A stretch of DNA of 21,116 nucleotides from a virus (IMGVR_UViG_3300034407_004294:1-21116), one strand, 5' to 3'; shown: positions 3,684 through 20,992, numbered from the stretch's first letter. Program-made: numbers and translations. The notes: generated from the sequence alone by a model not told the origin.

Positions 3684-4571
3684 ATGAAAATCAGATACTC
3701 TGAAACATTCTATTCTTTCCAAGGCGAGGCAGAACTAGCCGGAACTCCTACTGTTTGGTTACGTTTTTTTGGATGTAACCTAGAGTGTAATGGTTTCGGA
3801 CAAAAAAATCCTGCATTGCCAGAAAGCCATAAACTTCCATACAAAGAATTTGATCCTAATACAATACGAACAGTCGAAGAACTTCCCGTGTGGGAGTATG
3901 GTTGTGATAGTTCTTATTCGTGGTCAATGAAATATAAACACCTAGCTAAAGACTCAACAGTCGAAGGTATTTGTGATGAACTAGAGTCTAAACTCCCTTA
4001 TGGTAGTTTTATGAATCCTTTTACTGGACAAGAAAATATGTTAGCTTTTACTGGTGGTGAACCCATGTTATGCCAACGACAGATGAAAGCAATAGTAGGT
4101 GAGTTTCTTCATCGAGGTAATGTCCCTAAAATTATCACAGTAGAAACAAACGGCACAAAACCTTTGAATCCTGAACTTCAAGACTATATCAATACATACT
4201 TGTCTGAAATCGGTATACGTTGGCATTGGGCTATCAGTCCAAAAATTCTGCATACTTCAGGTGAAAAAGATGCAGTTGATGTTGGTAATTTTATGTCATA
4301 TGTTGACGGTGTTAAAGGCACATCTTGCATAAAGTTTGTGTGTAATGGCAGCACCGCTAGTTGGCGTGAGATTTCTCACTATAAAGATGAAATTATTGAA
4401 TATTGTATACACGCTGAAATACCTGTTCCTGATATTTGGATTATGCCTGTAGGAGCTACAAAAGAAGAACAGGAAAAAGTTGCCAATATTTGTATCACGG
4501 CAATGCAACAAGGTTATAAAGTCGCTACGAGGAACCATGCTTATGTCTTTGGCAATCAAATCGGAACATAG
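3684..4571 (+). CDS. queE: QueE, 7-carboxy-7-deazaguanine synthase (radical SAM)
   Basis: QueE rearranges 6-carboxy-tetrahydropterin (CPH4) to 7-carboxy-7-deazaguanine (CDG), the third step towards preQ0, using a 4Fe-4S cluster and S-adenosylmethionine. The N-terminus has the family phrase 'YSETFYSFQGEAELAGTP' and 'WLRFFGCNLEC'. Candidate cluster cysteines are C31, C35 and C74: the usual CX3CX2C motif is split, with 38 residues between the second and third cysteine, and C74 sits in GCDSSYSW like the usual CD(T/S). TGGEP (123-127) is the SAM-binding GGEP motif, and ETNGT (154-158) also fits the family. At 295 residues it is longer than most QueE, mainly because of this insertion. No Shine-Dalgarno precedes the ATG, consistent with leaderless translation from the adjacent promoter. 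Confidence 0.88.
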   Translation: MKIRYSETFYSFQGEAELAGTPTVWLRFFGCNLECNGFGQKNPALPESHKLPYKEFDPNTIRTVEELPVWEYGCDSSYSWSMKYKHLAKDSTVEGICDELESKLPYGSFMNPFTGQENMLAFTGGEPMLCQRQMKAIVGEFLHRGNVPKIITVETNGTKPLNPELQDYINTYLSEIGIRWHWAISPKILHTSGEKDAVDVGNFMSYVDGVKGTSCIKFVCNGSTASWREISHYKDEIIEYCIHAEIPVPDIWIMPVGATKEEQEKVANICITAMQQGYKVATRNHAYVFGNQIGT

Positions 4572-4983: not shown

Positions 4984-5165
4984 GAACTAGCGCAATACGC
5001 AAAGAAGTAAATCCTAATATAAACGAATCAGATGTTACGTATGTGGTAGAGCTGTATGAAGATGGCGAACTAGTAGAAATGCGAGCATTGCCAAATAAAA
5101 GTATCCACTATGCTCTCGCTGTGAGTGAGAATTGGAACAATGGAATCATCAAACATGATAAGTGA
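4980..5165 (+). CDS. Small protein of unknown function
   Basis: I do not recognise this 61-residue protein. The ATG at 4980 overlaps the gpt stop (ATGA) and has GGAG at 4971-4974, five bases upstream, which supports this start over an in-frame one at 4953. The sequence has an N-terminal basic stretch, then a likely beta hairpin (VTYVVELYEDGELVEMRAL), and a short helix (IHYALAVSENW). This layout is typical of small phage proteins translated between metabolic genes. It overlaps the folE start region by about 26 bases. Confidence 0.6.
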   Translation: MRTSAIRKEVNPNINESDVTYVVELYEDGELVEMRALPNKSIHYALAVSENWNNGIIKHDK

Positions 5166-5838
5166 TCTAATAAAATCTAGGTTAAAAAAAGCAGGCAAAA
5201 GATATTATGCCTCAGACAATATTGCTGAGTTTTTACATGATGGTGAGAAGGAAAAACTAGTAGAAGAATTGACTGAAAAATTCAGTGGTGTTCTTGACAG
5301 CCTTGTCATTGACAGTGACAACGATCCTAATTCACAAGGCACAGCAAAAAGATTAGCTAAAATGTATATCAATGAACTCATGTCGGGTCGTTATGACATG
5401 ATGCCAAACGCTACAGCATTTCCTAATCATATAGATGATGGCTTTGAAGGTATGCTTGTTGTTCGCAGCGAAATAACTTCAATGTGTTCACATCACCATC
5501 AACCCGTCAAAGGCGTAGCTTACATAGGCATCATTGCAGCAGATAAACTAATTGGTTTGTCTAAGTATACACGTATAGCACAATGGTGTGCAAGACGAGG
5601 CACACTACAAGAAGAACTAGCGAACGATATTGCTAGTGAAATTATGAAAGCTACTGGCAGTCAGAACTTAGGTGTTTATATTCAAGCCACTCATGGCTGT
5701 GTAGAACACAGAGGTGTTCAGGCACACAGTTCTTTGACTCAGACAACAGTCCTTAAAGGTAGTTTCTTCAATGATGCAGGAACTAGAAAAGAATTTTTTG
5801 ACAATATTAAATTACAACAGGATCACGCTCCAAGATGA
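5140..5838 (+). CDS. folE: FolE, GTP cyclohydrolase I
   Basis: FolE converts GTP to 7,8-dihydroneopterin triphosphate, the first committed step for both folate and 7-deazaguanine synthesis. The 232-residue product shows the full type I signature: 'MCSHHHQPVKGVAYIG' with zinc ligands C116 and H119, 'KLIGLSKYTRIAQWCARR', and 'ATHGCVEHRGV' with the third zinc ligand C187 and the GTP-binding histidine H185. The C-terminal 'T.TTVLKGSF' also fits. The ATG at 5140 is preferred; GTG 5125 and ATG 5155 are in-frame alternatives, and none has a strong ribosome binding site. The first 25 bases overlap the previous gene and the stop overlaps the next start (ATGA), so translation is likely coupled. With queE, queD and dpdA nearby, its job is probably DNA modification rather than folate supply. 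Confidence 0.92.
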   Translation: MESSNMISDLIKSRLKKAGKRYYASDNIAEFLHDGEKEKLVEELTEKFSGVLDSLVIDSDNDPNSQGTAKRLAKMYINELMSGRYDMMPNATAFPNHIDDGFEGMLVVRSEITSMCSHHHQPVKGVAYIGIIAADKLIGLSKYTRIAQWCARRGTLQEELANDIASEIMKATGSQNLGVYIQATHGCVEHRGVQAHSSLTQTTVLKGSFFNDAGTRKEFFDNIKLQQDHAPR

Positions 5839-6379: not shown

Positions 6380-7645
6380 ATGAATAGAAAACTAGAATAT
6401 GTGTTGTCAGGCACATCCTATGTTCGTCTGACAAATCCGCAATTGATAAACAATCCTGCAAACGTAGAAGTAGTAAACGAATTGTTTGACCACTTTTTTG
6501 ACGGTAAATATTCCCACAATTGTTCATTGCTGTACAACGCCTATGCTGAATCAGGTTTCGGTGAACGTATGCAAAAGTTTACAAACCATATCCAAAACAT
6601 ACACGCTGATTCTGGTGGTTTGCAAATGATTACACTCGGTAAAACTATTACGCCTGAACTAAAAGATAAAGTTTACGAGAATCAAGCTAAGTGGGCAGAC
6701 GTTGGTATGTGTTTTGATGAAATACCTTTGGTTCTCACAGGAGAAAGATCAGAACGTAATGCTACAAGAGACAGGTATTTTGACAAAGATAACTTTGAAC
6801 ATTATGCAAGACTTACTGGTAAAAATATTAAAAGACAACTAGAAATTTTTGAACAAAATGACAGTAATTGTAAACCTTTTTTAATTTTACAAGGTCATTG
6901 TTATGATACCTATATGCAATGGTATGATTGGGTGTTGGATGAAATACCTCAGTCAGAACACCATCGTATAGGAGGTCTTGCAATGGGAGCAGCAGCACTT
7001 GGTACAGGTCCGTTAGAAGATGTACAACGAGCTTTTATTGCAAGTCAAATACCTTGGCATCAGGACAAAATGCACCTTCACATACTGGGTGTTGGATCAC
7101 TTAGACGCCTACTGCCTTATTTGATTTTTTGTCAAAATGGTTTATACGACCGTATGGAAATTTCATACGATTCTACTACACATTCTAGAGCAGTTGAAAC
7201 AGGATTGTATTATCTGAACAACAGTACAATGAAATACAATAGAGACCCAGATGATAGATATAGAATCATATTAGAAGATGTTAAAAAACAATATCCTCAA
7301 CTAGATATACCTAAAGAAAAATTTTATGAAATGTTAAACACAGCCGGCAGTCCTTGGTTTGAAAAATATGGTAGTATCACTGAATGGCAAAGAACTAGAA
7401 CTGCTATGATATTCGGATGTGTGTCTAACTTTATGAAACACGTAGAAGAAATCATGTTGGACAAAGAAAAATTGTTAGAATTTGCCAACAAAATAAAACT
7501 TGACACGCAGTATCGAGGATTGTACAATATACAAAATAAAGATGATTTTGATTATTGGATGAACAATCCTTATCTCGGCAAAGAAATGAAAACAATGCCA
7601 ATTTCAGATGAACCACCAGAATCACTTGAAGATTTATTTGTATAG
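6380..7645 (+). CDS. dpdA: DpdA-like DNA 7-deazaguanine transglycosylase
   Basis: DpdA proteins, relatives of tRNA-guanine transglycosylase (TGT), exchange guanine in DNA for a free 7-deazaguanine base. The 421-residue protein has 'HADSGGLQM' (D77 in DSGG), 'CFDEIPL' (D113), 'QGHCYDTY', 'GGLAMG' (198-203) and 'ILGVGSLRRL', the TIM-barrel order of TGT. D264 in 'ISYDSTTHSRA' lines up with the TGT nucleophile region 'FDC..PTR.AR'. The TGT zinc cluster CxCxxC is absent, as expected of a divergent phage DpdA. No good ribosome binding site precedes ATG 6380, only two bases after the exonuclease stop. Neighbouring folE, queE and queD would supply its substrate. A tRNA target cannot be ruled out from sequence, but the divergence and context favour DNA. 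Confidence 0.85.
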   Translation: MNRKLEYVLSGTSYVRLTNPQLINNPANVEVVNELFDHFFDGKYSHNCSLLYNAYAESGFGERMQKFTNHIQNIHADSGGLQMITLGKTITPELKDKVYENQAKWADVGMCFDEIPLVLTGERSERNATRDRYFDKDNFEHYARLTGKNIKRQLEIFEQNDSNCKPFLILQGHCYDTYMQWYDWVLDEIPQSEHHRIGGLAMGAAALGTGPLEDVQRAFIASQIPWHQDKMHLHILGVGSLRRLLPYLIFCQNGLYDRMEISYDSTTHSRAVETGLYYLNNSTMKYNRDPDDRYRIILEDVKKQYPQLDIPKEKFYEMLNTAGSPWFEKYGSITEWQRTRTAMIFGCVSNFMKHVEEIMLDKEKLLEFANKIKLDTQYRGLYNIQNKDDFDYWMNNPYLGKEMKTMPISDEPPESLEDLFV

Positions 7646-9991: not shown

Positions 9992-10916
9992 TGTATTAGT
10001 TACAGGTGGCAATGGTTACATAGGAACACAAACAGTCTTACAGTTGAAAGCTGCAGGTTATGAACCTGTTGTTGTAGATTGGGTTGCAGACACAGCTAAG
10101 AACTCCTACACTTACTCATTTGATGATAATGCTGTTTTAGATATTATGAAACGGCACAACATCAAATCAGTGATACACTTTGCTGCTGACCATGAAGTAG
10201 GTCGCAGCGTTGAGGAACCATCAGTGTTTTACAACAACAATGTTGTCAGTAGTATCAAGTTTCTTGATAAGTGTATTCAAGCAGGTGTTGAAAAGTTTAT
10301 CTTCAGTAGCTCTAGTAGTGTATATGGTGATGATCCAGAATTTCCTACAACAGAAAATAACAAAAAAAATCCTATGTCGCCTTATGGTAGAACAAAGGAT
10401 ATGTTTGAAGAGGTACTGCTAGATTACGATAGAGCTTACGGTATCAAAACAATGTCTCTTAGGTACTTCAATGCTGCGGGTGCTGACCCATTAAACAGGC
10501 ATGGTTATTGTCAAGATACTTACTCACATTTGGTTCCTATTCTTGCTAGATGTTTCGGGCAGGATCTTCCTTTTACTATTTTCGGTAAAGACTATGACAC
10601 CCCTGACGGAACTTGCATAAGAGACTATACCCATGTTTATGATATTGCAGATGCACACATCAAAGCATTGGATTATGAAGGACCAGAAAGAATATTTAAT
10701 ATAGGAAAAGGTAAAGGCGAAAGTGTTATAAATGTTATAAATGCTTTTGAAGAATATACAGGAAAGAAAATAAAAATAAATGTTACAGGAAGAAGAATGG
10801 GTGACCCTGCAAAAACATTTGCAAACATAGATCTTGCAAAAAATTATTTGAATTGGACTCCGATCTATTCAATTGAGGATATAGTCGAACACGCTTACAA
10901 GTGGGAGAACAGATGA
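9981..10916 (+). CDS. galE: UDP-glucose 4-epimerase-like sugar-nucleotide epimerase
   Basis: This extended short-chain dehydrogenase interconverts UDP-sugars, most likely UDP-glucose and UDP-galactose. The 311-residue protein has the NAD-binding motif 'VTGGNGYIG' (G9, G12, G15), 'VIHFAADHEVGRSVEEP' with the GalE pattern, 'SSSSSVYG' (109-116) with the catalytic Ser/Thr region, Y135-K139 in 'YGRTK', 'RYFNAAGADP', and 'RDYTHVYDIADAHI', a GalE hallmark. It is a little shorter than E. coli GalE (338), mostly at the C-terminus. AAGG at 9971-9974 precedes the ATG by six bases. It overlaps the glycosyltransferase upstream and queD downstream (ATGA), so it probably supplies the donor sugar for the transferase. 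The exact sugar remains open. Confidence 0.88.
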   Translation: MKDNVLVTGGNGYIGTQTVLQLKAAGYEPVVVDWVADTAKNSYTYSFDDNAVLDIMKRHNIKSVIHFAADHEVGRSVEEPSVFYNNNVVSSIKFLDKCIQAGVEKFIFSSSSSVYGDDPEFPTTENNKKNPMSPYGRTKDMFEEVLLDYDRAYGIKTMSLRYFNAAGADPLNRHGYCQDTYSHLVPILARCFGQDLPFTIFGKDYDTPDGTCIRDYTHVYDIADAHIKALDYEGPERIFNIGKGKGESVINVINAFEEYTGKKIKINVTGRRMGDPAKTFANIDLAKNYLNWTPIYSIEDIVEHAYKWENR

Positions 10917-11362
10917 AATATTATTCAACGAAAACGTATGGGCATGAACGTGGGTTGTCTTGTGTATTTAGACAACCTAATGCCACGCATAGCCATTGTT
11001 CACTGCTACATGGTTACTCATTAGGATTCAGTTTTAAGTTTGGCACTGAAGCTCTTGATGATAAAAACTGGGTAGTAGACTTTGGTGGCTTAAAGAAACT
11101 GAAAAATTGGTTAGAAGATACTTTTGACCACACAGTTGTTGCAGACAACAACGATCCACATCTTAAAGACTTGTTTGAACTACAAGAAAAAGGAATTGCT
11201 AAGGTTGTAGTTATGCGAGGTGTTGGTTGTGAAATGTTTGCAGAGGAAGCCTTTTGGGTAGCAGACAGTATAGTAAAAGAACTGACAAATGGTAGATGTC
11301 ATTGTGTGTCGTGTGAAGTAAGGGAACACGGTGCTAACTCTGCTATATACGAGCGTGAATGA
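10913..11362 (+). CDS. queD: QueD, 6-carboxy-5,6,7,8-tetrahydropterin synthase
   Basis: QueD turns dihydroneopterin triphosphate into CPH4, the second step of 7-deazaguanine synthesis. The 149-residue protein has 'YGHERGLSCVFRQ' (H11), 'NATHSHCSLLHGYSL' (H26, H28, C29, H33), 'WVVDFGGLKKL', 'DTFDHT' (D72, H73) and 'CEVREHGANSA' (E137, H139). C29, D72 and H73 match the catalytic triad and the histidines the zinc site. The usual HGH is HGY here, a feature I remember from a family of alphaproteobacterial homologues, so it is probably a subfamily trait rather than damage. ATG 10913 overlaps the galE stop and has GGGAG (10903-10907) five bases upstream; an in-frame GTG at 10901 is less likely. The stop overlaps the gp47 start. 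Confidence 0.88.
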   Translation: MKYYSTKTYGHERGLSCVFRQPNATHSHCSLLHGYSLGFSFKFGTEALDDKNWVVDFGGLKKLKNWLEDTFDHTVVADNNDPHLKDLFELQEKGIAKVVVMRGVGCEMFAEEAFWVADSIVKELTNGRCHCVSCEVREHGANSAIYERE

Positions 11363-12420: not shown

Positions 12421-14087
12421 TAAAATTTACTGCTATTAGGTGGAAAAACTTTTTGTCTACTGGCAATGCTTTTACTGAGATAAAACTCAACAAAAGCAGT
12501 AGTACATTAGTTCTAGGTGAGAATGGTTCTGGTAAGTCTACGTTACTAGATGCTCTTACGTTTACATTATTCAACAAACCTTTTCGTAATGTATCTAAAC
12601 CTCAGTTGATAAACTCTATCAACAAAAAGAAGTTGTTAGTGGAGGTTGAGTTTAACATAGGAAGTAAACAATATCTTGTACGCAGAGGTAGTTTACCTGG
12701 TATATTTGATATAGAAATTGACGGTGAACCTCTAGACCAAAATGCAAATGTTAGAGACTTTCAAAAACACCTTGAAGAAAATATTTTAAAACTAAACTAC
12801 AAGTCTTTTACACAAATTGTTATATTAGGTAGTGCATCCTTCACTCCTTTTATGCAATTGACTCCCAATGTTAGAAGAGAGATCATTGAGGACATTTTAG
12901 ACATACGTATTTTTTCAACAATGAAAGATGTGTTGAAAGGTAAAATAACAGAACTCAAAGAAAAAATACGGTTTACTGAGAGTGAAATAATTGTAGAAAA
13001 AGAAAAGGGTAAAGTACAAAAAAGTTATGTCGAAACACTAGAGTCTGATAAACAAGAACGTATTGATAAAATACAGGGAGATATAGATGAAACAAACTCA
13101 ACAATCACAAGCCTTACAGAGAGTGCAACCTCTTGCACAACAGAGAAGAAGAATCTTGGCTCAGTTGAATCAAAAAAGCAGAAACTGGAGACCTATAATC
13201 AAGAAATAATTAGGAAGATAAAAGAGCATCAAAAAGAAGTAGATTTTTATCACAATAATGATGATTGTCCTACTTGCAAACAAGGCATACCGCATGAGTT
13301 TAAAGTCAGTATGTCAGAAGAAAAGAAGGACAGGATTGATGAACTTGAAACTGCGAGTAAAGACCTAAAGAAAAACTTAGAAGAAGTGAATGAGTTGTAT
13401 GAAAAAGTTTTGTCTTTAGACGAACAAATTATGAGCTTCAATAATCAAATCATCACAAATCAAACACTTCTGCAACGGCTTGTATTAGAAAAATCTGAGG
13501 CTGAAAGTAAAGTAGGTGACATTGAAAAAGAAACTGAAAAGTTAAAACAAACAGCTAAGAAAATCATGGAACTGACAAGCAACAAAAATGTTTTGTCAGA
13601 GGAACAACAATACAATAGTGTTGCAGAAAATTTACTCAAAGACTCAGGTATAAAAACTAAAATTATTCGTCAATATTTGCCTGTCATAAATAAGTTAGTG
13701 AATAAATATTTAACTGCCATGGACTTCTTTGTTCAGTTTGAGTTAGACGAAACATTTAAAGAAACAATAAAGTCCAGACACAGAGATAAGTTTAGTTACG
13801 CTTCATTTAGTGAAGGTGAAAAACAAAGAATAGATTTGGCACTTGTATTCACTTGGCGAACTATTGCTAAAATGAAAAACAGTGCCAGTACAAATTTATT
13901 ACTTTTAGACGAGGTTTTTGATAGCTCTCTAGATGTTAATGGTACTGACTATGTTATGACCTTGTTAAACACAATAGGTGAGGATACAAATGTGTTTGTA
14001 ATTTCTCACAAAGGAGATCAACTGTTTGACAAGTTTAGAAGTGTTATCAGATTTGAAAAGAAAAACAATTATTCGGTGATGGTATAA
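12417..14087 (+). CDS. 46: gp46, SbcC/Rad50-like recombination ATPase
   Basis: gp46 is the ATPase partner of gp47. The 556 residues (T4: 560) show Walker A 'GENGSGKST' (34-42), two long coiled-coil arms (about 170-275 and 295-395) joined by a zinc hook 'CPTC' (C283, C286), the ABC signature 'FSEGEKQR' (463-470) and Walker B 'LLLLDEVFD' (493-501), followed by the D-loop 'SSLD'. Dimerisation through the hook and ATP-driven opening are known for the family. AGGA (12407-12410) lies six bases before the ATG, which overlaps the gp47 stop. The stop shares one base with the def start. Confidence 0.96.
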   Translation: MIKFTAIRWKNFLSTGNAFTEIKLNKSSSTLVLGENGSGKSTLLDALTFTLFNKPFRNVSKPQLINSINKKKLLVEVEFNIGSKQYLVRRGSLPGIFDIEIDGEPLDQNANVRDFQKHLEENILKLNYKSFTQIVILGSASFTPFMQLTPNVRREIIEDILDIRIFSTMKDVLKGKITELKEKIRFTESEIIVEKEKGKVQKSYVETLESDKQERIDKIQGDIDETNSTITSLTESATSCTTEKKNLGSVESKKQKLETYNQEIIRKIKEHQKEVDFYHNNDDCPTCKQGIPHEFKVSMSEEKKDRIDELETASKDLKKNLEEVNELYEKVLSLDEQIMSFNNQIITNQTLLQRLVLEKSEAESKVGDIEKETEKLKQTAKKIMELTSNKNVLSEEQQYNSVAENLLKDSGIKTKIIRQYLPVINKLVNKYLTAMDFFVQFELDETFKETIKSRHRDKFSYASFSEGEKQRIDLALVFTWRTIAKMKNSASTNLLLLDEVFDSSLDVNGTDYVMTLLNTIGEDTNVFVISHKGDQLFDKFRSVIRFEKKNNYSVMV

Positions 14088-14605
14088 TGAAAGAACTAGA
14101 GTTGTTGCCTTTCGGTGATCCTTTTTTGAGTAACAAACCCAGTGAGTTTGATTTTGAAAAAGAAGATGCTAGAGAACTGAGCCTAAGACTGTTTCATGCT
14201 ATGGGTAAGGCAGGTGGTATAGGATTATCTGCTAATCAAGTTGGACTTGATATGAAAGTGTTTGTTATGGGCGGCAATGATAAAGTGCCATCCAAAGCAA
14301 TATTTAATCCTAAATTGCAAAGTGTATCTGATAAAATGGTTAGTATGAAAGAAGGGTGTTTGTCATATCCAGGACTTTGGTTAATGATAAAACGACCTGT
14401 AGAATGTTCAATTTCATATCAGGATGAAACAGGTGCTGTTATTGCAGAGGGGTTTTCTGGATTTTCAGCAAGAGTTGTTTTGCACGAATACGATCATATG
14501 TTGGGTCAAAATTTTACTCAGAGAGCATCTTCTTTGAAGCTACAAAGAGCTATGAAACATATGGACAAAAAAGTAAAGAACTTTAAGAGAGGAAAAAATG
14601 TCTGA
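14087..14605 (+). CDS. def: Peptide deformylase
   Basis: Peptide deformylase removes the formyl group from the starting methionine of new proteins. The 172-residue protein holds all three motifs: 'GIGLSANQVG' (44-53), 'EGCLSYPG' (89-96) with the metal-binding Cys91, and 'VLHEYDHMLGQNF' with H133, E134 and H137. The first motif has Ser where many have Ala, and the third has HEYDH rather than HE(I/F)DH, both minor changes. All catalytic residues are kept, so it should be active. Deformylases are recurrent in marine T4-like phages and may speed maturation of phage or photosystem proteins. It starts on the last base of the gp46 stop and overlaps the next gene by eight bases. Confidence 0.93.
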   Translation: MKELELLPFGDPFLSNKPSEFDFEKEDARELSLRLFHAMGKAGGIGLSANQVGLDMKVFVMGGNDKVPSKAIFNPKLQSVSDKMVSMKEGCLSYPGLWLMIKRPVECSISYQDETGAVIAEGFSGFSARVVLHEYDHMLGQNFTQRASSLKLQRAMKHMDKKVKNFKRGKNV

Positions 14606-14966
14606 CGATATATTCGATTTCGGTTTTACTGCGGTAGATGAAATGCCTACCTCTACAACCGTACAGGAACCTGTAGTAGCACAGGTAGACGATACACAGC
14701 TACAAACTATAATGGACAAGTTAGAAAGACTTGAGAGTTTGGTGTTGACTTCAGATAATTCTTCAATGATTAATGAACACCGTGAGCTTGTGCAGCAAGA
14801 TGTGACTGCAAAACTTGGACAAGTAGAGGACCTTATCTTACCACTACTGTATAATCTACAAAAGAATCCAGAGAAGGATTATATTCATTGGCCTAATAGG
14901 ACGGCTATCATAGATAAACAAATAGAAAGGATCAAAGCGGTAACACGTTACTATGAAAATGTTTAG
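14598..14966 (+). CDS. Conserved small marine T4-like phage protein, unknown function
   Basis: I recognise the N-terminus 'MSDDIFDFGFTAVDE' and the C-terminal phrase 'NLQKNPEKDYIHWPNRTAIID' as typical of a small protein conserved in marine T4-like phages, but know no demonstrated function. The 122 residues divide into an acidic, flexible start (about 1-32), a helical middle with heptad-like leucines ('LQTIMDKLERLESLVL'), and the conserved C-terminal segment followed by a helix. A role as a scaffold or adaptor is possible (inference). A strong ribosome binding site (AGAGAGGA ending at 14593) precedes ATG 14598, which overlaps def by eight bases. Confidence 0.72.
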   Translation: MSDDIFDFGFTAVDEMPTSTTVQEPVVAQVDDTQLQTIMDKLERLESLVLTSDNSSMINEHRELVQQDVTAKLGQVEDLILPLLYNLQKNPEKDYIHWPNRTAIIDKQIERIKAVTRYYENV

Positions 14967-14974
14967 GAGATAGT

Positions 14975-15571
14975 ATGTCAGATAATGAAAAAGGATTGGA
15001 TACTTTTACAGGTGTAGAAGGAGTATTTGCAAGACCTACAGGAAACCTATTTGATTTTTATTTGAACGGTGAACTTGAAGGACCTGGAAGTTACGTTGAA
15101 TGGAATCATATTATACGAACAGCACAAGAAACAGATGTAATTTATCTGCACATTAATTGTTATGGTGGTGATGTAATGACTGCGGTACAGTTAATGCGAG
15201 CTTTATCCGAATCAAATGCTCACGTAATTGCTTCGGTTGAAGGCGCTTGTATGTCAGCTGCTACCTTTGTATTCTTAATTGCAGACTCATTTGAAATTTC
15301 AGACCACAGTATGTTTATGTTTCACAATTATTCAGGTTTCTCTATAGGTAAAGGAAACGAAATGAAAGAGCAGATCATGCACGAGGAGAAGTGGGCTAAA
15401 AATTTACTTACCAAACTGTATGATGGATTTCTGACTAAGGATGAAATCAAGGAAATATGTAATGGACGAGACATTTGGATGTCCCCAGATGAAGTCGGAT
15501 CTCGCTTGGAGAAACGAAACAGCCTCAAAACCACTCCCAAAAAAAAGACAAAAGCGAAAAAAACTGCTTGA
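14975..15571 (+). CDS. clpP: ClpP-like serine protease
   Basis: The 198-residue protein has the ClpP/crotonase fold pattern: 'VIYLHINCYGGDVMTAVQLMRAL' in segments, 'SVEGACMSAATFVFLIAD' with the nucleophile Ser94, 'MFMFHNYSG' with His117, and a late Asp/Glu-rich stretch 'GRDIWMSPDEVG' where the third catalytic residue is expected. Length matches ClpP (about 200). ClpP usually has GSAASM around the serine; ACMSAATF is divergent but keeps Ser and small neighbours. The helix docking a Clp ATPase cannot be judged. The C-terminal 14 residues are lysine-rich. AGGAGA (14965-14970) sets the start. Phage ClpP-like enzymes can act in head maturation or, as in marine phages, in host protein turnover. Its stop codon forms part of the next promoter's -35. 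Confidence 0.85.
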   Translation: MSDNEKGLDTFTGVEGVFARPTGNLFDFYLNGELEGPGSYVEWNHIIRTAQETDVIYLHINCYGGDVMTAVQLMRALSESNAHVIASVEGACMSAATFVFLIADSFEISDHSMFMFHNYSGFSIGKGNEMKEQIMHEEKWAKNLLTKLYDGFLTKDEIKEICNGRDIWMSPDEVGSRLEKRNSLKTTPKKKTKAKKTA

Positions 15572-15596
15572 CAAACTAAAAAAGAGATAATATACT
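15568..15596 (+). promoter_or_regulatory. Sigma70-type promoter reading into a stem-loop
   Basis: TTGACA (15568-15573), 17 bases, then TATACT (15591-15596). The preceding bases (TGC) give TGCTTGACA, shared with the promoters at 15694 and 19318. Start of transcription would be near 15603, and the only thing immediately downstream is the long stem-loop ending at about 15690, so the product could be a short RNA. Confidence 0.7.
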
Positions 15597-15693: not shown

Positions 15694-15722
15694 TTGACAA
15701 ATACGAAAAAAGATGTCATAAT
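15694..15722 (+). promoter_or_regulatory. Sigma70-type promoter for the cobT-like gene
   Basis: TTGACA (15694-15699), 17 bases, CATAAT (15717-15722), preceded by TGC as in the neighbouring promoters. Start would be near 15729, leaving a leader of about 36 bases that carries TGAAAAAACG (15735-15744) and TTGTGAGGA (15746-15754), both repeated in the cobS-like leader. The ribosome binding site GAGGA ends 10 bases before ATG 15765. Confidence 0.78.
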
Positions 15723-15764: not shown

Positions 15765-18008
15765 ATGCAAATTCAACAGAAATCACTATTAGCTAAACTA
15801 CTGTCTACCGAAAACATTACGGTAGAGGTTAAGGCTGATCTGCCTACCGCAGCATTCGATCCTACTAGTCGCACCATGTTCATTCCCAAGTGGAAGGATA
15901 TGCCTACTTGTATGCAAGATCTGCTTATCGGTCATGAGGTAGGTCACGTACATGAGACTCCTGCAGAAGGCTGGCACGATGCTATTTGCGAGGATCAGAC
16001 TCTTAAAAGTTTCCTCAATGTAGTTGAGGATGCTCGCATTGAGCGCAAGGTCAAGACACGTTATCCTGGTTTGGTACGTAACTTCTACGCAGGCTATCGT
16101 GAATTGTTCGAGCGTGACTTCTTCGGTGTCAAAGACATTGATGTAAATGCTCTCCCTCTTATTGACCGTATCAATCTACACTTTAAGGTCGGTTCATTTC
16201 TCAATATCCAATTCTCAGACGCCGAGCGTCCATTTGTCGAGCGTTGTGCGACTACTGAAACCTGGGAAGAGGTTGAAGAACTTGCCCGTGAATTACACGG
16301 CAAGGCTCAGGAAACTGCTGAGGATGATATTGAGCAGTTGATGGATGAAGTCAATTCCTCCTCAGATGACAGCGACATGGACATGGACGGTGATACGTCA
16401 CCTTTGGATCAGTCAGACTCAGACGATACTGAGGAAGGCGGTTCAGCTGCTGGTAACACTGGCGAGGAGACCGATGAGGACTCAGATAACGAATCACAGG
16501 GCGCTGGTTCATCCGAAGATGACGATGATTCAGTCAGCGACATGATAGAAGATGAGGATGCGCCCGAAGCTCCTAAGGCAGTACAGGACTTCGCTGACAA
16601 CGGCGGTGTTGGTTCAATTACTGACAAGGCTTTCCGTGACAATGAGGAGAACCTGTTAGATAAAGATTCACGTTACAAGGAATCCGTATATGTCAATGTA
16701 CCTACTAAAATTGACCTGACAGATATTATTGTACAGCCACGTGAGGTTTACAATTGGAATCTTGTCGAGGTTGGTAGCCTTAGAGACATAGACCCTAAGG
16801 TGTATGCTGAAGGACTGTACAAGGATTTCATTGCACAGAACAGCAAGACTATCAATCAGATGGTTTCTACTTTCGAGATGAAGCGTAAAGCATCACAATT
16901 CATCAAGGCTAGGACTTCTAAGACAGGCGATCTTAATGAGGATCGTTTGTGGGCTTACAAGACCTCAGACGATTTGTTCAAGCAGATCACTTCAATCCCA
17001 GAAGGCAAGAACCACGGTTTCATTATGCACCTTGATATGTCAGGTTCAATGTTCCGTAATATGACTGACACTATTGCACAGCTTATCAACCTTACTATGT
17101 TCGCACGTAAGATCAATGTACCATTTGAGGTGTATGGTTTTACTACAGGCAGTGGCTACGGTTGGTCTCACCCTAATGCTAAAGTCGGTGATTTTGTTTT
17201 CGAGGAAGCTAAGATAGTCAAGCTGCTCACTTCAGACTTCAGCAAGCGTCAGCTCGAGGAAGCATACAAGTATTTGCTGCTTTGGAGAGCATCCTTTGAG
17301 TATCGGATGAAGTATCGTTACAATGAAGGTGGTTTTCCTGTATGGGTAGGTGACAATAGAGCTCTTGATATGGGCGGCACTCCTCTCAATTCTACACTTA
17401 TTGTTGGTATTGAGATTGCCAAGCAGTTTCGCAAGGCTACAGGTGTTGAACTTCTTAACACTATTATCCTGACTGACGGTGAGGCTACTGACTTTGCCGA
17501 ATTGTGGGTAGAATCAACCACACGTAGCGGTATGTACCCTAGTACACTTCGCTACGGTCAGGTCCCCGTGTTGAAATACGGTTCAGCTACTTACCCATTG
17601 ATTGAGGGTAACGCACACCGTAACACGGAATTGACCTGTACTCTGCTTGAGTTGTACAAAGACATCACAGGCTCTAAGGTTATCAACTATCACATCCTGG
17701 ATAGGTTCAGCAAGCGAGAAATTGAACAATGCAAAGACTACGCTTCTATCGGTAATTCAGACATGGGCTACATTGCTTGGGAGAAGATTTATGCTCCTCA
17801 GCGAGCCTCAGGGCTCATTGAAGCACGTGATACTAAAGGCTTTGATGTACGCTACATTATGAACGGTTCAAAGCTGAGCATTGAGGACGAGGAGCTCGAG
17901 GTCAAGTCTACTAAGAAGGGTGATTTGCTCCGAGGCTTCCGTAAGTTTGCAGGCTCTAAGGCTCAGCAGCGCATATTTGTACAGAAATTTATACCAGAAG
18001 TAGCGTAA
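15765..18008 (+). CDS. cobT: CobT-like VWA protein with HExxH metallopeptidase motif
   Basis: This 747-residue protein resembles the CobT subunit of aerobic cobaltochelatase in domain order. The N-terminal domain (about 1-180) contains HEVGH (57-61) and 'NVVEDARIERKV' (85-96), the layout of a zinc metallopeptidase with a downstream acidic third ligand. A low-complexity acidic linker (about 183-265) is rich in D, E and S. The C-terminal domain (about 415-620) is von Willebrand factor A type, with the MIDAS motif DMSGS (424-428), Thr539 in 'GGTPLNS' and 'LTDGEATD' (D571). CobT normally works with an AAA+ partner, and that gene follows directly. The catalytic CobN subunit is not in the window, so ATP-driven remodelling or peptidase activity seems likelier than metal insertion. 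GC content and codon choice are clearly higher than in flanking genes. It has its own promoter and strong ribosome binding site. Confidence 0.85.
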   Translation: MQIQQKSLLAKLLSTENITVEVKADLPTAAFDPTSRTMFIPKWKDMPTCMQDLLIGHEVGHVHETPAEGWHDAICEDQTLKSFLNVVEDARIERKVKTRYPGLVRNFYAGYRELFERDFFGVKDIDVNALPLIDRINLHFKVGSFLNIQFSDAERPFVERCATTETWEEVEELARELHGKAQETAEDDIEQLMDEVNSSSDDSDMDMDGDTSPLDQSDSDDTEEGGSAAGNTGEETDEDSDNESQGAGSSEDDDDSVSDMIEDEDAPEAPKAVQDFADNGGVGSITDKAFRDNEENLLDKDSRYKESVYVNVPTKIDLTDIIVQPREVYNWNLVEVGSLRDIDPKVYAEGLYKDFIAQNSKTINQMVSTFEMKRKASQFIKARTSKTGDLNEDRLWAYKTSDDLFKQITSIPEGKNHGFIMHLDMSGSMFRNMTDTIAQLINLTMFARKINVPFEVYGFTTGSGYGWSHPNAKVGDFVFEEAKIVKLLTSDFSKRQLEEAYKYLLLWRASFEYRMKYRYNEGGFPVWVGDNRALDMGGTPLNSTLIVGIEIAKQFRKATGVELLNTIILTDGEATDFAELWVESTTRSGMYPSTLRYGQVPVLKYGSATYPLIEGNAHRNTELTCTLLELYKDITGSKVINYHILDRFSKREIEQCKDYASIGNSDMGYIAWEKIYAPQRASGLIEARDTKGFDVRYIMNGSKLSIEDEELEVKSTKKGDLLRGFRKFAGSKAQQRIFVQKFIPEVA

Positions 18009-18018
18009 GTTATTGATA

Positions 18019-18062
18019 TTACAGGGCTTAAAGTTTGAGAAAATGCTTGACTTTTCCTGTAA
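18019..18062 (+). repeat. Inverted repeat flanking the -35 of the cobS-like promoter
   Basis: TTACAGG (18019-18025) and CCTGTAA (18056-18062) are perfect 7-base inverted arms separated by 30 bases. The right arm falls in the spacer between the -35 and -10 elements, a position where a bound protein could block polymerase. It might also be a weak hairpin after the cobT-like gene. The length is near what chance allows. Confidence 0.35.
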
Positions 18063-18074
18063 ACCGTGTATAAT
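18047..18074 (+). promoter_or_regulatory. Sigma70-type promoter for the cobS-like gene
   Basis: TTGACT (18047-18052), 16 bases, TATAAT (18069-18074), preceded by TGC as in three sister promoters. The leader of about 58 bases contains TGAAAAAACG (18088-18097) and TTGTGAGGA (18121-18129), shared with the cobT-like leader; GAGGAG (18125-18130) lies eight bases before ATG 18139. Confidence 0.82.
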
Positions 18075-18138
18075 ATAGCATATAAACTGAAAAAACGCAC
18101 TAAAATTTATTATTAATAGCTTGTGAGGAGCTTATATT

Positions 18139-19314
18139 ATGACAGACCGTAACGCAGCACTTATTGACACCCTCCGTTCATACGCTGACGGAAACAACCA
18201 TGTATCCCGTAAGGATATTATCCGTGAGGCTAAGGCTATTGGTATCAATCACCCTGGCTTTTTACTCAAAGATCAATTCAAGGTTGAGAAAGGCGTGTAT
18301 GATCTGACTGAGATGTTCACAGGCACTGCTGCGGTTCCCGTTGCAAGAAAGCCTATCATGGAGGTTGTCACACCAACACCTGCTCCTGTTGCAGCACCTG
18401 AGTCAAAGGTTGTATCAATGGCTAAACTTGCTATGGATATTGAGAACTTGGTCCCATCCAAAGATGCTACGTATGTACCCTTTGGTTTTCACAAGGACCT
18501 TAAAACTATTTTGCAGGGCGGTATGTTTTACCCTCTGTTTATTTCCGGCTTGTCCGGTAACGGTAAGACCACGATGGTTGAGCAGGTTTGCGCTCAGCTC
18601 AAGCGTGAGGCTATCCGTGTGAATATTAGTATTGAAACCGATGAGGACGATTTAATCGGTGGCAATACTCTGGTTGATGGTAACGTAGTCTATAGAGAAG
18701 GTCCCGTCCTCACCGCTATGAAGCGTGGGGCTGTTCTCATTCTTGACGAGGTAGACAGAGGCTCCAACAAGCTAATGTGCCTTCAAGCGATTCTTGAAGG
18801 TAAGTCCTACTTCAACAAGAAGACTGGCGAAACCGTCGCTCCTGCTCCCGGGTTTACAATAGTTGCAACGGCCAACACTAAAGGTCGAGGCTCAGATGAC
18901 GGCAAGTTTATCAGCGCACAGCTGCTAGACGAGGCTTTCCTCGAGCGTTTTGCAATTACCGTGGAGCAGGAGTATCCTACAGCAGCCGTAGAGAAACGCA
19001 TCATCCTTAACAAGATGAGCAAGGCTGGCTATACTGATGAGGACTTTGCTACTCATCTTGTCACTTGGTCTGAGGTTATCCGTAAGACCTTCTTTGAGGG
19101 TGCCATAGACGAGCTTGTCAGCACCCGTAGGCTTGAGCACATTGTCAATGCGTATGGTGTGTTCAAGGACAAGCTCAAGGCAATCACCTTGTGTACAAAT
19201 CGTTTTGACGCTGATACTAAGGCGGCCTTTATTGACTTGTATACTAAGGTTGACCCTTCAAACCCTCAGCCCGTTGAGGTTGAGGAGACTACTTCGGACG
19301 ATGTCGAGTTTTAA
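18139..19314 (+). CDS. cobS: CobS-like MoxR-family AAA+ ATPase
   Basis: The 391-residue protein is a MoxR/CobS-type AAA+ ATPase. The first 60 residues form a separate domain ('NHVSRKDIIREAKAIGINHPGFLL' in segments) that looks like a small helical, winged-helix-like module, followed by a Pro/Ala/Val-rich linker (about 62-92). The ATPase core has Walker A GLSGNGKTT (137-145), 'TDEDDLIGGNTLVDG' (168-181), Walker B 'LILDEVD' (200-206), sensor 1 'ATANT' (243-247) and 'LLDEAFLERF' (262-271) with an arginine at the finger position. CobS is common in marine T4-like phages and is often listed as a cobalamin gene, but the pairing here is ATPase plus VWA protein, without CobN in view. It probably forms a ring that works on or with the upstream CobT-like protein. 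GC is about 50% in a sampled stretch. Confidence 0.88.
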   Translation: MTDRNAALIDTLRSYADGNNHVSRKDIIREAKAIGINHPGFLLKDQFKVEKGVYDLTEMFTGTAAVPVARKPIMEVVTPTPAPVAAPESKVVSMAKLAMDIENLVPSKDATYVPFGFHKDLKTILQGGMFYPLFISGLSGNGKTTMVEQVCAQLKREAIRVNISIETDEDDLIGGNTLVDGNVVYREGPVLTAMKRGAVLILDEVDRGSNKLMCLQAILEGKSYFNKKTGETVAPAPGFTIVATANTKGRGSDDGKFISAQLLDEAFLERFAITVEQEYPTAAVEKRIILNKMSKAGYTDEDFATHLVTWSEVIRKTFFEGAIDELVSTRRLEHIVNAYGVFKDKLKAITLCTNRFDADTKAAFIDLYTKVDPSNPQPVEVEETTSDDVEF

Positions 19315-19377: not shown

Positions 19378-20604
19378 ATGTCAGTAACACCCATAATCAA
19401 AGTAACAAATAATCAAAAGTTTGTATATCCTTTTGTTTGGAAAAATCAAAAAATTGAAGTTCCTATTAATCTTTATTCTCAATATTATGAATTGGATAAA
19501 GAATTAGAGTCAGTCCGGACTATGGCCGAAAATCTTGATGAGGCTATGAATTCTCCTGAGGTCAGAAAAGCTTTGAAAAAAATTAAGGCCAGGATGAAAC
19601 CTAAGCGTCCAAGCCAACGTAATAAAGTTTGGAAGATTAGATTGGGGGATTATCTCATTGCTGAGGACCTACAAAGAATTCTAGATTGTAAGCATATAGC
19701 TAAAATCTTAGAAAATTACAATGATACTTGTATGTCTATTCTGGCTGGTGTTATACACCTTGGCATGGGAGGAAAGCCTATTTCATCTGACGCACAACAC
19801 ACTGCTGTTGTAGCTGCTATAATGATTAAGTCCGGTCTTTGGGTTGATGAAAACGGTGAACGCTATCCAAACTGGGAAGACTACGAGATAGATATGTGGG
19901 GCGCCGAGGCTACTTCTTTAGCAGAAGCTAGACAGCAATTTCAAGTTAGTAATGGTGTAGGCAAAAAACCCCAAGGCAAATATATGAAACTAAAAAATGC
20001 CATTAAAACTATAAGAGTAGATAAAGTTACAGACAATTTGGAATATGTTGATCTTGAAAAAAGATTGTCTATATGTGAAAGTTTTGATTGTCTTCCTTTA
20101 AATGAAAAATTTAAAAATAAAAGGTTTTCTAATTGTTTTAGTCATATTGACGGGTTCTGGAAAACAAAGTCACATAAAGCTACGGAACTAGCATGTAAGT
20201 ATCAAACAAAATATTTTTATAATGACGAATTTCACAGCTCTGTTTGGTCTGTGTGGAGAGATATAGAATCATATTTTTCCAATGCCAATTTAGTAGTTAG
20301 TGATAAGTTAATGGAAGAGTTGGCAGCACTTGTACAGAATGTATTTGTAACTCATTATGCTTTCATGCAAGCAATAGATGAGGCATATCAGAAATGGAAT
20401 AAAAGGTGTGAACTGGAGCCAAAAAAACATGATGAAAAAAGTTTAGCCGTAGCTCTGGTTCAAATGTATAAATGCTGTGGCGGTACTGAACAAGTACCGA
20501 AGGCTATGTTAAACAATTTTGTACATACAGATATTTGGGAGGACGGCGAAAAAATTCGCTTGATTAATTTTATAGATGAGGCCAGACCATATTATGTCAA
20601 ATAG
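19378..20604 (+). CDS. Protein of unknown function, possibly ParB-like domain
   Basis: I do not recognise this 408-residue protein with confidence. After a polar, lysine-rich N-terminal region (to about 85), the segment 'VWKIRLGDYLIAEDLQRILD', 'CMSILAGVIHLGMGGKPISSDAQHTAVVAAI' in segments (118-148) recalls the ParB/Srx fold, where a 'DGxHR..A' motif binds nucleotide; here DAQHT (138-142) would take that place. The following 'EATSLAEARQQFQVSNGVGKKP' fits the helix after the motif in some phage ParB-like proteins. The C-terminal half is mostly helical, with several Cys and Trp and no familiar motif. It has its own consensus promoter and a good ribosome binding site, so it is probably made early and well. 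The DNA is AT-rich again (about 27% in a sampled line), in sharp contrast to the cobS-like gene before it. Confidence 0.6.
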   Translation: MSVTPIIKVTNNQKFVYPFVWKNQKIEVPINLYSQYYELDKELESVRTMAENLDEAMNSPEVRKALKKIKARMKPKRPSQRNKVWKIRLGDYLIAEDLQRILDCKHIAKILENYNDTCMSILAGVIHLGMGGKPISSDAQHTAVVAAIMIKSGLWVDENGERYPNWEDYEIDMWGAEATSLAEARQQFQVSNGVGKKPQGKYMKLKNAIKTIRVDKVTDNLEYVDLEKRLSICESFDCLPLNEKFKNKRFSNCFSHIDGFWKTKSHKATELACKYQTKYFYNDEFHSSVWSVWRDIESYFSNANLVVSDKLMEELAALVQNVFVTHYAFMQAIDEAYQKWNKRCELEPKKHDEKSLAVALVQMYKCCGGTEQVPKAMLNNFVHTDIWEDGEKIRLINFIDEARPYYVK

Positions 20605-20992
20605 TGAAAAATGTTGGTGGTTTTATATTACAATTGGACACAAATATTTAGGATTTGGATATACTACCAATCCTCCTTCACGTAATTCCGATTATAGTAT
20701 TCATGGTGACCCATATGAATTTCAATATATGTATAGAGGAAGCAAGTCTGCAATCAAATCGTTAGAAGGACAATTTAAGCGTGGTATTTTTCCTTTACGA
20801 GAAATTGCAGGATACCAACGTGAGTGGTTTGATCCTTCTGCAAATTTAGATTTAGAGACATTTAAAAATATGGTAGATGATTTTATTGATAATAGAAATT
20901 TGGACATTGTTTTGTGTGCAAAGGATTATGTATTTACAGACTGTCCAGGCATAGAGTATTTGAAAGAGGCAGTTTTGAATGAAGAAGATTGA
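20594..20992 (+). CDS. GIY-YIG/T5orf172-like small protein
   Basis: From ATG 20594 this protein is 132 residues. 'FYITIGHKYLGFGYTTNPPSRNSDY' in segments resembles the T5orf172/GIY-YIG pattern, in which a 'K.GiT.np..R...Y' stretch carries the catalytic arginine (R30 here). It continues with a strand, a helix containing E58 ('IKSLEGQF') and 'GYQREWFD' (73-80), which matches the terminal 'g.rEWF' of that family. The GIY and YIG triplets are degenerate, so it may be an inactive or DNA-binding version. It overlaps the previous gene by 11 bases; GAGG (20578-20581) is 12 bases before this start, and an ATG at 20576 is an alternative adding six residues. Nuclease activity is a guess. Confidence 0.55.
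   Translation: MSNSEKCWWFYITIGHKYLGFGYTTNPPSRNSDYSIHGDPYEFQYMYRGSKSAIKSLEGQFKRGIFPLREIAGYQREWFDPSANLDLETFKNMVDDFIDNRNLDIVLCAKDYVFTDCPGIEYLKEAVLNEED

Follow-up and report, generated by a model that had tools for sequence, protein, structure and literature searches.

Evidence against a vitamin B12 label for the CobS/CobT-like gene pair of marine T4-like phages

Surveys of marine phages take the gene cobS as a marker and read it as a B12-synthesis gene; its function in cyanophage infection is stated to be unknown (PMC9983427). What, then, does the gene pair labelled CobS/CobT do in these viruses? Two functions have been proposed previously. In one report the viral pair was treated as CobST and the name 'peptidase' as a mistake, and hijacking of the host CobN was proposed (PMC8651126). 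In another, a MoxR ATPase and a vWA protein fused to an N-terminal metallopeptidase were described in group 2.2 jumbo phages and proposed to act in virion assembly; these phages infect mostly gammaproteobacteria, and cyanophages were placed in group 2.1 (PMC7824862). Here we analysed such a pair on the linear virus record IMGVR_UViG_3300034407_004294:1-21116, a stretch of 21,116 bases that is called the window throughout.

The window is a fragment of a marine T4-like phage and carries T4-like genes for tail tube, UvsY, UvsW, gp55, gp47 and gp46 (profile matches). Both ORFs of the pair were found as the first-pass annotation had described them (Table 1). Genes for a QueE-like protein (3684-4571), a GTP cyclohydrolase (5125-5838), a TGT/DpdA-like protein (6380-7645, phrog_10773) and a QueD-like protein (10901-11362) probably constitute a 7-deazaguanine DNA-modification set. 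Directly 5′ of the pair, genes for a peptide deformylase, a small ORF and a ClpP-like protease (14087-15571) are found in the window's clade, where they form a proteostasis-like cluster with the pair. According to synteny, the ClpP-like gene is a neighbour specific to this clade; as it is missing from many relatives, ClpP was dropped as a partner of the pair. Two ORFs located 3′ of the AAA gene (19378-20992) lack family matches and have counterparts, among the compared loci, in L002 only; a 138-aa ORF within this interval looks GIY-YIG-like by eye.

Table 1. Features of the pair and its flanks in the window
Feature	Coordinates	Strand	Remarks
ClpP-like protease gene	14975..15571	+	phrog_1827, E 1.6e-59; just 5′ of the peptidase gene
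Further sigma70-type promoter	15568-15596	+	also 5′ of the peptidase gene
Sigma70-type promoter TTGACA-17-CATAAT	15694..15722	+	5′ of the peptidase gene; consensus match
Zincin-VWA protein ORF, 747 aa	15765..18008	+	phrog_459 'peptidase', T4-GC146 homologue
Putative N-terminal metallopeptidase domain, residues 1-200	15765..16364	+	most constrained part of the protein
HEVGH motif, residues 57-61	15933..15947	+	inside predicted helix, residues 48-64
EDARIE segment, residues 88-93	16026..16043	+	in later predicted helix, residues 78-99
Acidic disordered linker, about residues 203-265	16371..16559	+	pLDDT < 50
VWA domain, about residues 415-645	17007..17699	+	full MIDAS
Sigma70-type promoter TTGACT-16-TATAAT	18047..18074	+	5′ of the AAA gene; consensus match
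CobS/CbbQ/NorQ-like MoxR-superfamily AAA+ ATPase ORF, 391 aa	18139..19314	+	phrog_249
Extra small N-terminal domain, residues 1-61	18139..18321	+	pLDDT about 89-97
Walker A GLSGNGKT	18547..18570	+	G137, G140, N141, G142, K143, T144 invariant, alignment A6
Walker B LILDE	18736..18750	+	alignment A6
Promoter, 12/12 score	19318-19345		5′ of the two ORFs downstream of the AAA gene

The first ORF matches phrog_459 over its full length (E 1.6e-166) and gave no match in a Pfam search. Its homologues occur in 463 phage records, nearly all of cyanophages and pelagiphages. Conservation was evaluated in an alignment of 82 non-redundant homologues from IMG/VR and other loci, most of them ~30-40% identical to the window's protein. 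The HEVGH and EDARIE motifs, the acidic linker and the complete MIDAS noted in the first pass were all recovered. At H57, E58 and H61 all 81 ungapped rows agree (one of the 82 is gapped), while E88 and R91 are kept in 82/82 and D89 in 81/82; the MIDAS (DMSGS at 424-428, T539, D571) is conserved at D424, S426, S428, T539 and D571 in all 82. Judged from the alignment, this conservation is not due to chance. More than half of the invariant columns (24/43) fall within residues 1-200, and in close pairs dN relative to dS is lowest there; between the window and L002, dN and dS were 0.023 and 0.384 for this domain compared with 0.121 and 0.673 for the VWA part. The acidic linker is the fastest-evolving part of the protein.

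In the structure model (mean pLDDT 78), HEVGH and E88 are placed in two helices after three strands, a predicted order that is compatible with zincins. The tested zincin feature, an HExxH in a helix followed by a downstream Glu, is present, with E88 as the candidate third zinc ligand. In a Foldseek search with the full-length model, the VWA part matched the VWA domain of NorD (9qh6_G) and Mdn1-MIDAS (8ql1_C); no zincin was among the matches listed, the recognisable ones being VWA proteins. The peptidase profile found no significant relative when compared with PDB sequences. The putative zincin fold of the N-terminal domain is deduced from the motif and the modelled helix topology.

The second ORF matches phrog_249 (E 3.6e-107) and AAA_5 (E = 5.6e-17), in line with the AAA+ partner that the earlier annotation had described as bearing an extra N-terminal domain. 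In the structure model residues 1-61 fold separately and are joined to the rest by a flexible linker; the modelled order of helices and strands would be winged-helix-like, and weak AbiEi_4 matches were the only ones obtained, in two relatives. All catalytic motifs are invariant, giving the complete AAA+ set of the CbbQ/NorQ/CobS branch. N246, R270 and R330/R331 are invariant as well (alignment A6); from family knowledge, we take these to be the sensor, the candidate Arg finger and sensor-2, respectively. The model (mean pLDDT 83) has its best structural matches in CbbQ and NorQ (best E 4e-18, TM about 0.85 by target length). The feature tested for a MoxR-superfamily pair, a MIDAS-bearing VWA protein encoded beside the AAA gene, is present. 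The AAA fold and the MIDAS VWA are common to the window's pair and to NorQ-NorD and CbbQ-CbbO, whereas the target differs and the window's AAA protein adds the winged-helix-like domain. The window's partner in addition has a HExxH zincin-type head, NorD and CbbO having been compared here by their VWA/AAA parts only.

The pair is a real, conserved and already known core pair of cyanophages and pelagiphages. The recurrent gene order is gp47-gp46-(PDF-ORF-ClpP in the window's clade)-peptidase-AAA-gp45-gp44-gp62-regA, so that the position of the pair, between gp46 and gp45, is conserved. Wherever more than 1.5 kb of sequence follows the peptidase gene, the AAA gene lies 3′ of it in the same orientation (76/76 loci), and the gap between the two measures at most 600 nt in 79/86. 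In L086 the two genes are 7.7 kb apart; in L091 an AAA ORF lies upstream on the other strand, in a locus with too short a downstream sequence for the adjacency count. AAA matches from Herelleviridae were left out, their neighbours being without VWA or HExxH. The profiles, the order and the gp46-gp45 place are those of the phrog_459/T4-GC146 and phrog_249/T4-GC150 core pair, but the window's peptidase is only about 30-35% identical to that of the named phages and its clade adds PDF and ClpP upstream. Pelagiphages HTVC008M and Mosig encode the pair. The cluster of S-CREM2 was described as lacking cobS (PMC10665884), yet S-CREM2 has the pair under the names 'ribosome assembly protein' and 'MoxR-like ATPase'. 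A rise in GC3 (0.46-0.49 in the window) was dropped as a signal of high expression or acquisition, since it does not hold for loci in general; CGT usage rises more clearly at the pair and matches that of gp45.

The aerobic cobaltochelatase CobS/CobT has the AAA domain, the acidic linker and the MIDAS VWA in common with the window's pair, CobS is a near named sequence relative of its AAA protein, and VEDARIE in the window resembles VEQARVE in CobT. The window's pair, by comparison, comes without CobN, without CobS_N and without a CobT model match, and keeps the HExxH. The first-pass annotation had seen no CobN, and this held on a wider scale. There is none in the window, which as a 21-kb fragment is weak evidence alone, and none in 12 virus records (10 with the pair and 2 with CobT-like relatives), some of them possibly incomplete. 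A tblastn search of 50,697 phage records for CobN gave 2 matches, both outside the peptidase-bearing groups. The record of Pseudomonas phage Y13 (H262, OQ572414.1) contains a CobN-like match of full length that may be host sequence. The phage peptidase did not match the CobT models TIGR01651, PF06213 or PF11775, while the positive control for TIGR01651, CobT L101, scored 960 bits. Against the CobS equivalog TIGR01650 the phage AAA protein reached 77 bits at a cut-off of 558.55 and it lacks CobS_N (PF12556); the CobS control yielded 638 bits and contains PF12556. Finally, HExxH occurs in 0/25 CobT proteins from 25 Pseudomonadota genomes, as against 81/81 non-redundant phage homologues. The cobaltochelatase tests thus fail for the pair, and the conclusion that it is not a cobaltochelatase, together with the earlier claim that it does not serve cobalamin synthesis, is well supported.

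Kinship between CobT and the zincin-VWA family is probable nonetheless. Plasmid-encoded VWA proteins with an intact HExxH, namely HECGH in L126 and HEAAH in L130 (an IncC plasmid), score slightly above the PF06213 cut-off and cover almost the full model length, and for this reason the sequences suggest that CobT may be a relative that lost the HExxH site. In profile-profile comparison of the phage peptidase with CobT the VWA match was weak (14% probability) and the N-terminal match very weak (2.6%), so homology of the N-terminal domains would rest on the bridging plasmid proteins and the motifs. The phage HExxH aligns ambiguously to CobT, at HDxxxH or at GHADSxAL. Among viral relatives, the haloarchaeal virus VWA protein HCTV-2 gp80 keeps HExxH; P74-26 gp48 and the CobT of Pseudomonas phage hairong are without it. 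On the conjugative plasmids L130 and L129 (Hydrogenophaga), a DUF3150 gene adjoins the gene for an HExxH-VWA protein whose score lies slightly above the CobT Pfam cut-off.

Each gene of the pair has its own consensus-matching promoter in the window (Table 1). Counting sites that score at least 10/12 within 180 nt upstream of the start, sigma70-type sites were found in relatives at 54/78 peptidase genes and 54/79 AAA genes, compared with 3 and 3 in shuffled sequence, and at 0/17 tail tube genes. The late motif [TC]ATAAATA precedes 2/98 peptidase and 6/86 AAA genes, but 10/19 tail tube and 18/25 hsp20 genes. Because sigma70-type sites are frequent and the late motif is rare at the pair, these sequence patterns suggest early or middle expression. 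A literature search for transcript timing of the pair itself found none. In the virion proteome of S-SZBM1, comprising 30 proteins, the sole enzyme named in the text is a cytidylyltransferase, and CobS is not named among the proteins detected; five are of unknown function, and the peptidase could be among these.

How do the published proposals fare? That the pair joins the host CobN and boosts cobalamin synthesis (PMC8651126) we regard as very improbable, and the evidence speaks against it. It draws some support from the AAA protein, which is close to CobS (TIGR01650 is its best NCBIfam match and PDB CobS 9ujv is matched with E 1.6e-33), from the probable kinship with CobT, and from a Synechococcus MAG with two CobN/ChlH-type genes. 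Besides the failed tests with passing controls, the hosts and the phages count against it. SAR11 was reported as a B12 auxotroph (PMC9296465), yet HTVC008M and Mosig have the pair; in pelagiphage hosts one would not expect a corrin pathway for it to serve. Moreover, the small subunit of a class I RNR is encoded in 8/10 tested phage records, so that supplying B12 to a class II RNR of the phage is not an obvious need.

Two other alternatives appear unlikely, if clearly less so than a cobaltochelatase. The motor and the zincin could process or place structural proteins during virion assembly. Some T4 assembly chaperones are early products, so early promoters are compatible with such a role; T4-like phages, however, already have a gp21-type prohead protease. 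Also unfavourable are the rarity of late-type promoters at the pair as opposed to tail tube and hsp20, its position in the replication block and the S-SZBM1 virion data. In favour is the same architecture in the group 2.2 jumbo phages, with the same domain order and AAA neighbour when compared by description only (PMC7824862). A further analogue is the pair of the archaeal virus ATV, likewise a virus-encoded MoxR ATPase with a VWA partner, in which p618 binds p892 and is assigned to tail development (PMC4124505, a review). The ATV pair was reported to lack a peptidase domain (PMC7824862) and is likened by description; p618 is a virion component. On balance, the evidence tilts against the virion-assembly proposal. 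Alternatively, the pair could be a pure chaperone, its zincin head a metal-binding substrate clamp devoid of peptidase activity, which matures a metallo-complex or a part of the ribosome or replisome in the manner of NorQD, CbbQO or Midasin. A HExxH site can be structural, the closest solved folds and sequences of the pair proteins include NorQ, CbbQ and Midasin, and CobT, as a probable relative, works as a motor partner without HExxH. A gene for ribosomal protein S21 lies near the pair in seven loci (L005, L006, L041, L055, L092, L093 and, between the two genes, L082), making a link to ribosome remodelling possible. Against a mere clamp, the invariant HExxH with E and D/R in the most constrained domain seems more than such a function needs.

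We therefore favour, at a probability of roughly 0.6, the view that the pair is not a cobaltochelatase but combines a CbbQ/NorQ-like motor and a zincin-VWA partner to remodel or cleave a protein target. By analogy, both genes would encode one machine. The motor would be a hexameric AAA+ ATPase of the CobS/CbbQ/NorQ (MoxR) branch, and the MIDAS-bearing VWA domain of the partner would dock on the AAA ring in the way that NorD docks on NorQ. A zincin head, its HExxH...E site intact, would be the partner's further contribution; the motor would remodel or feed the protein target and the zinc head would probably cleave or trim it. Lying within the replication/recombination gene block, the pair would be made early or in the middle of infection under strong host-type promoters of its own, and a host or replication-phase protein is favoured as the target over a virion protein. 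The chaperone or protease activity on a host or phage target that the first-pass annotation had envisaged is consistent with this anatomy. A more specific version is tentative and has slightly less than an even chance. In it the 'B12 gene' is a misannotation, and the 'cobS' reported from most T4-like cyanophages drives an ATP-dependent metalloprotease, made early, by which a host or replication protein is disarmed or rebuilt.

CobN hijacking and virion assembly were already published as functions; new here is the evidence against the B12 label. B12-synthesis claims built on the CobS/CobT-labelled pair need testing. If the pair is a protein-remodelling metalloprotease, metabolic readings of phage cobS would be wrong, and one of the most conserved gene pairs of marine phages would become a concrete, testable proteolysis system.
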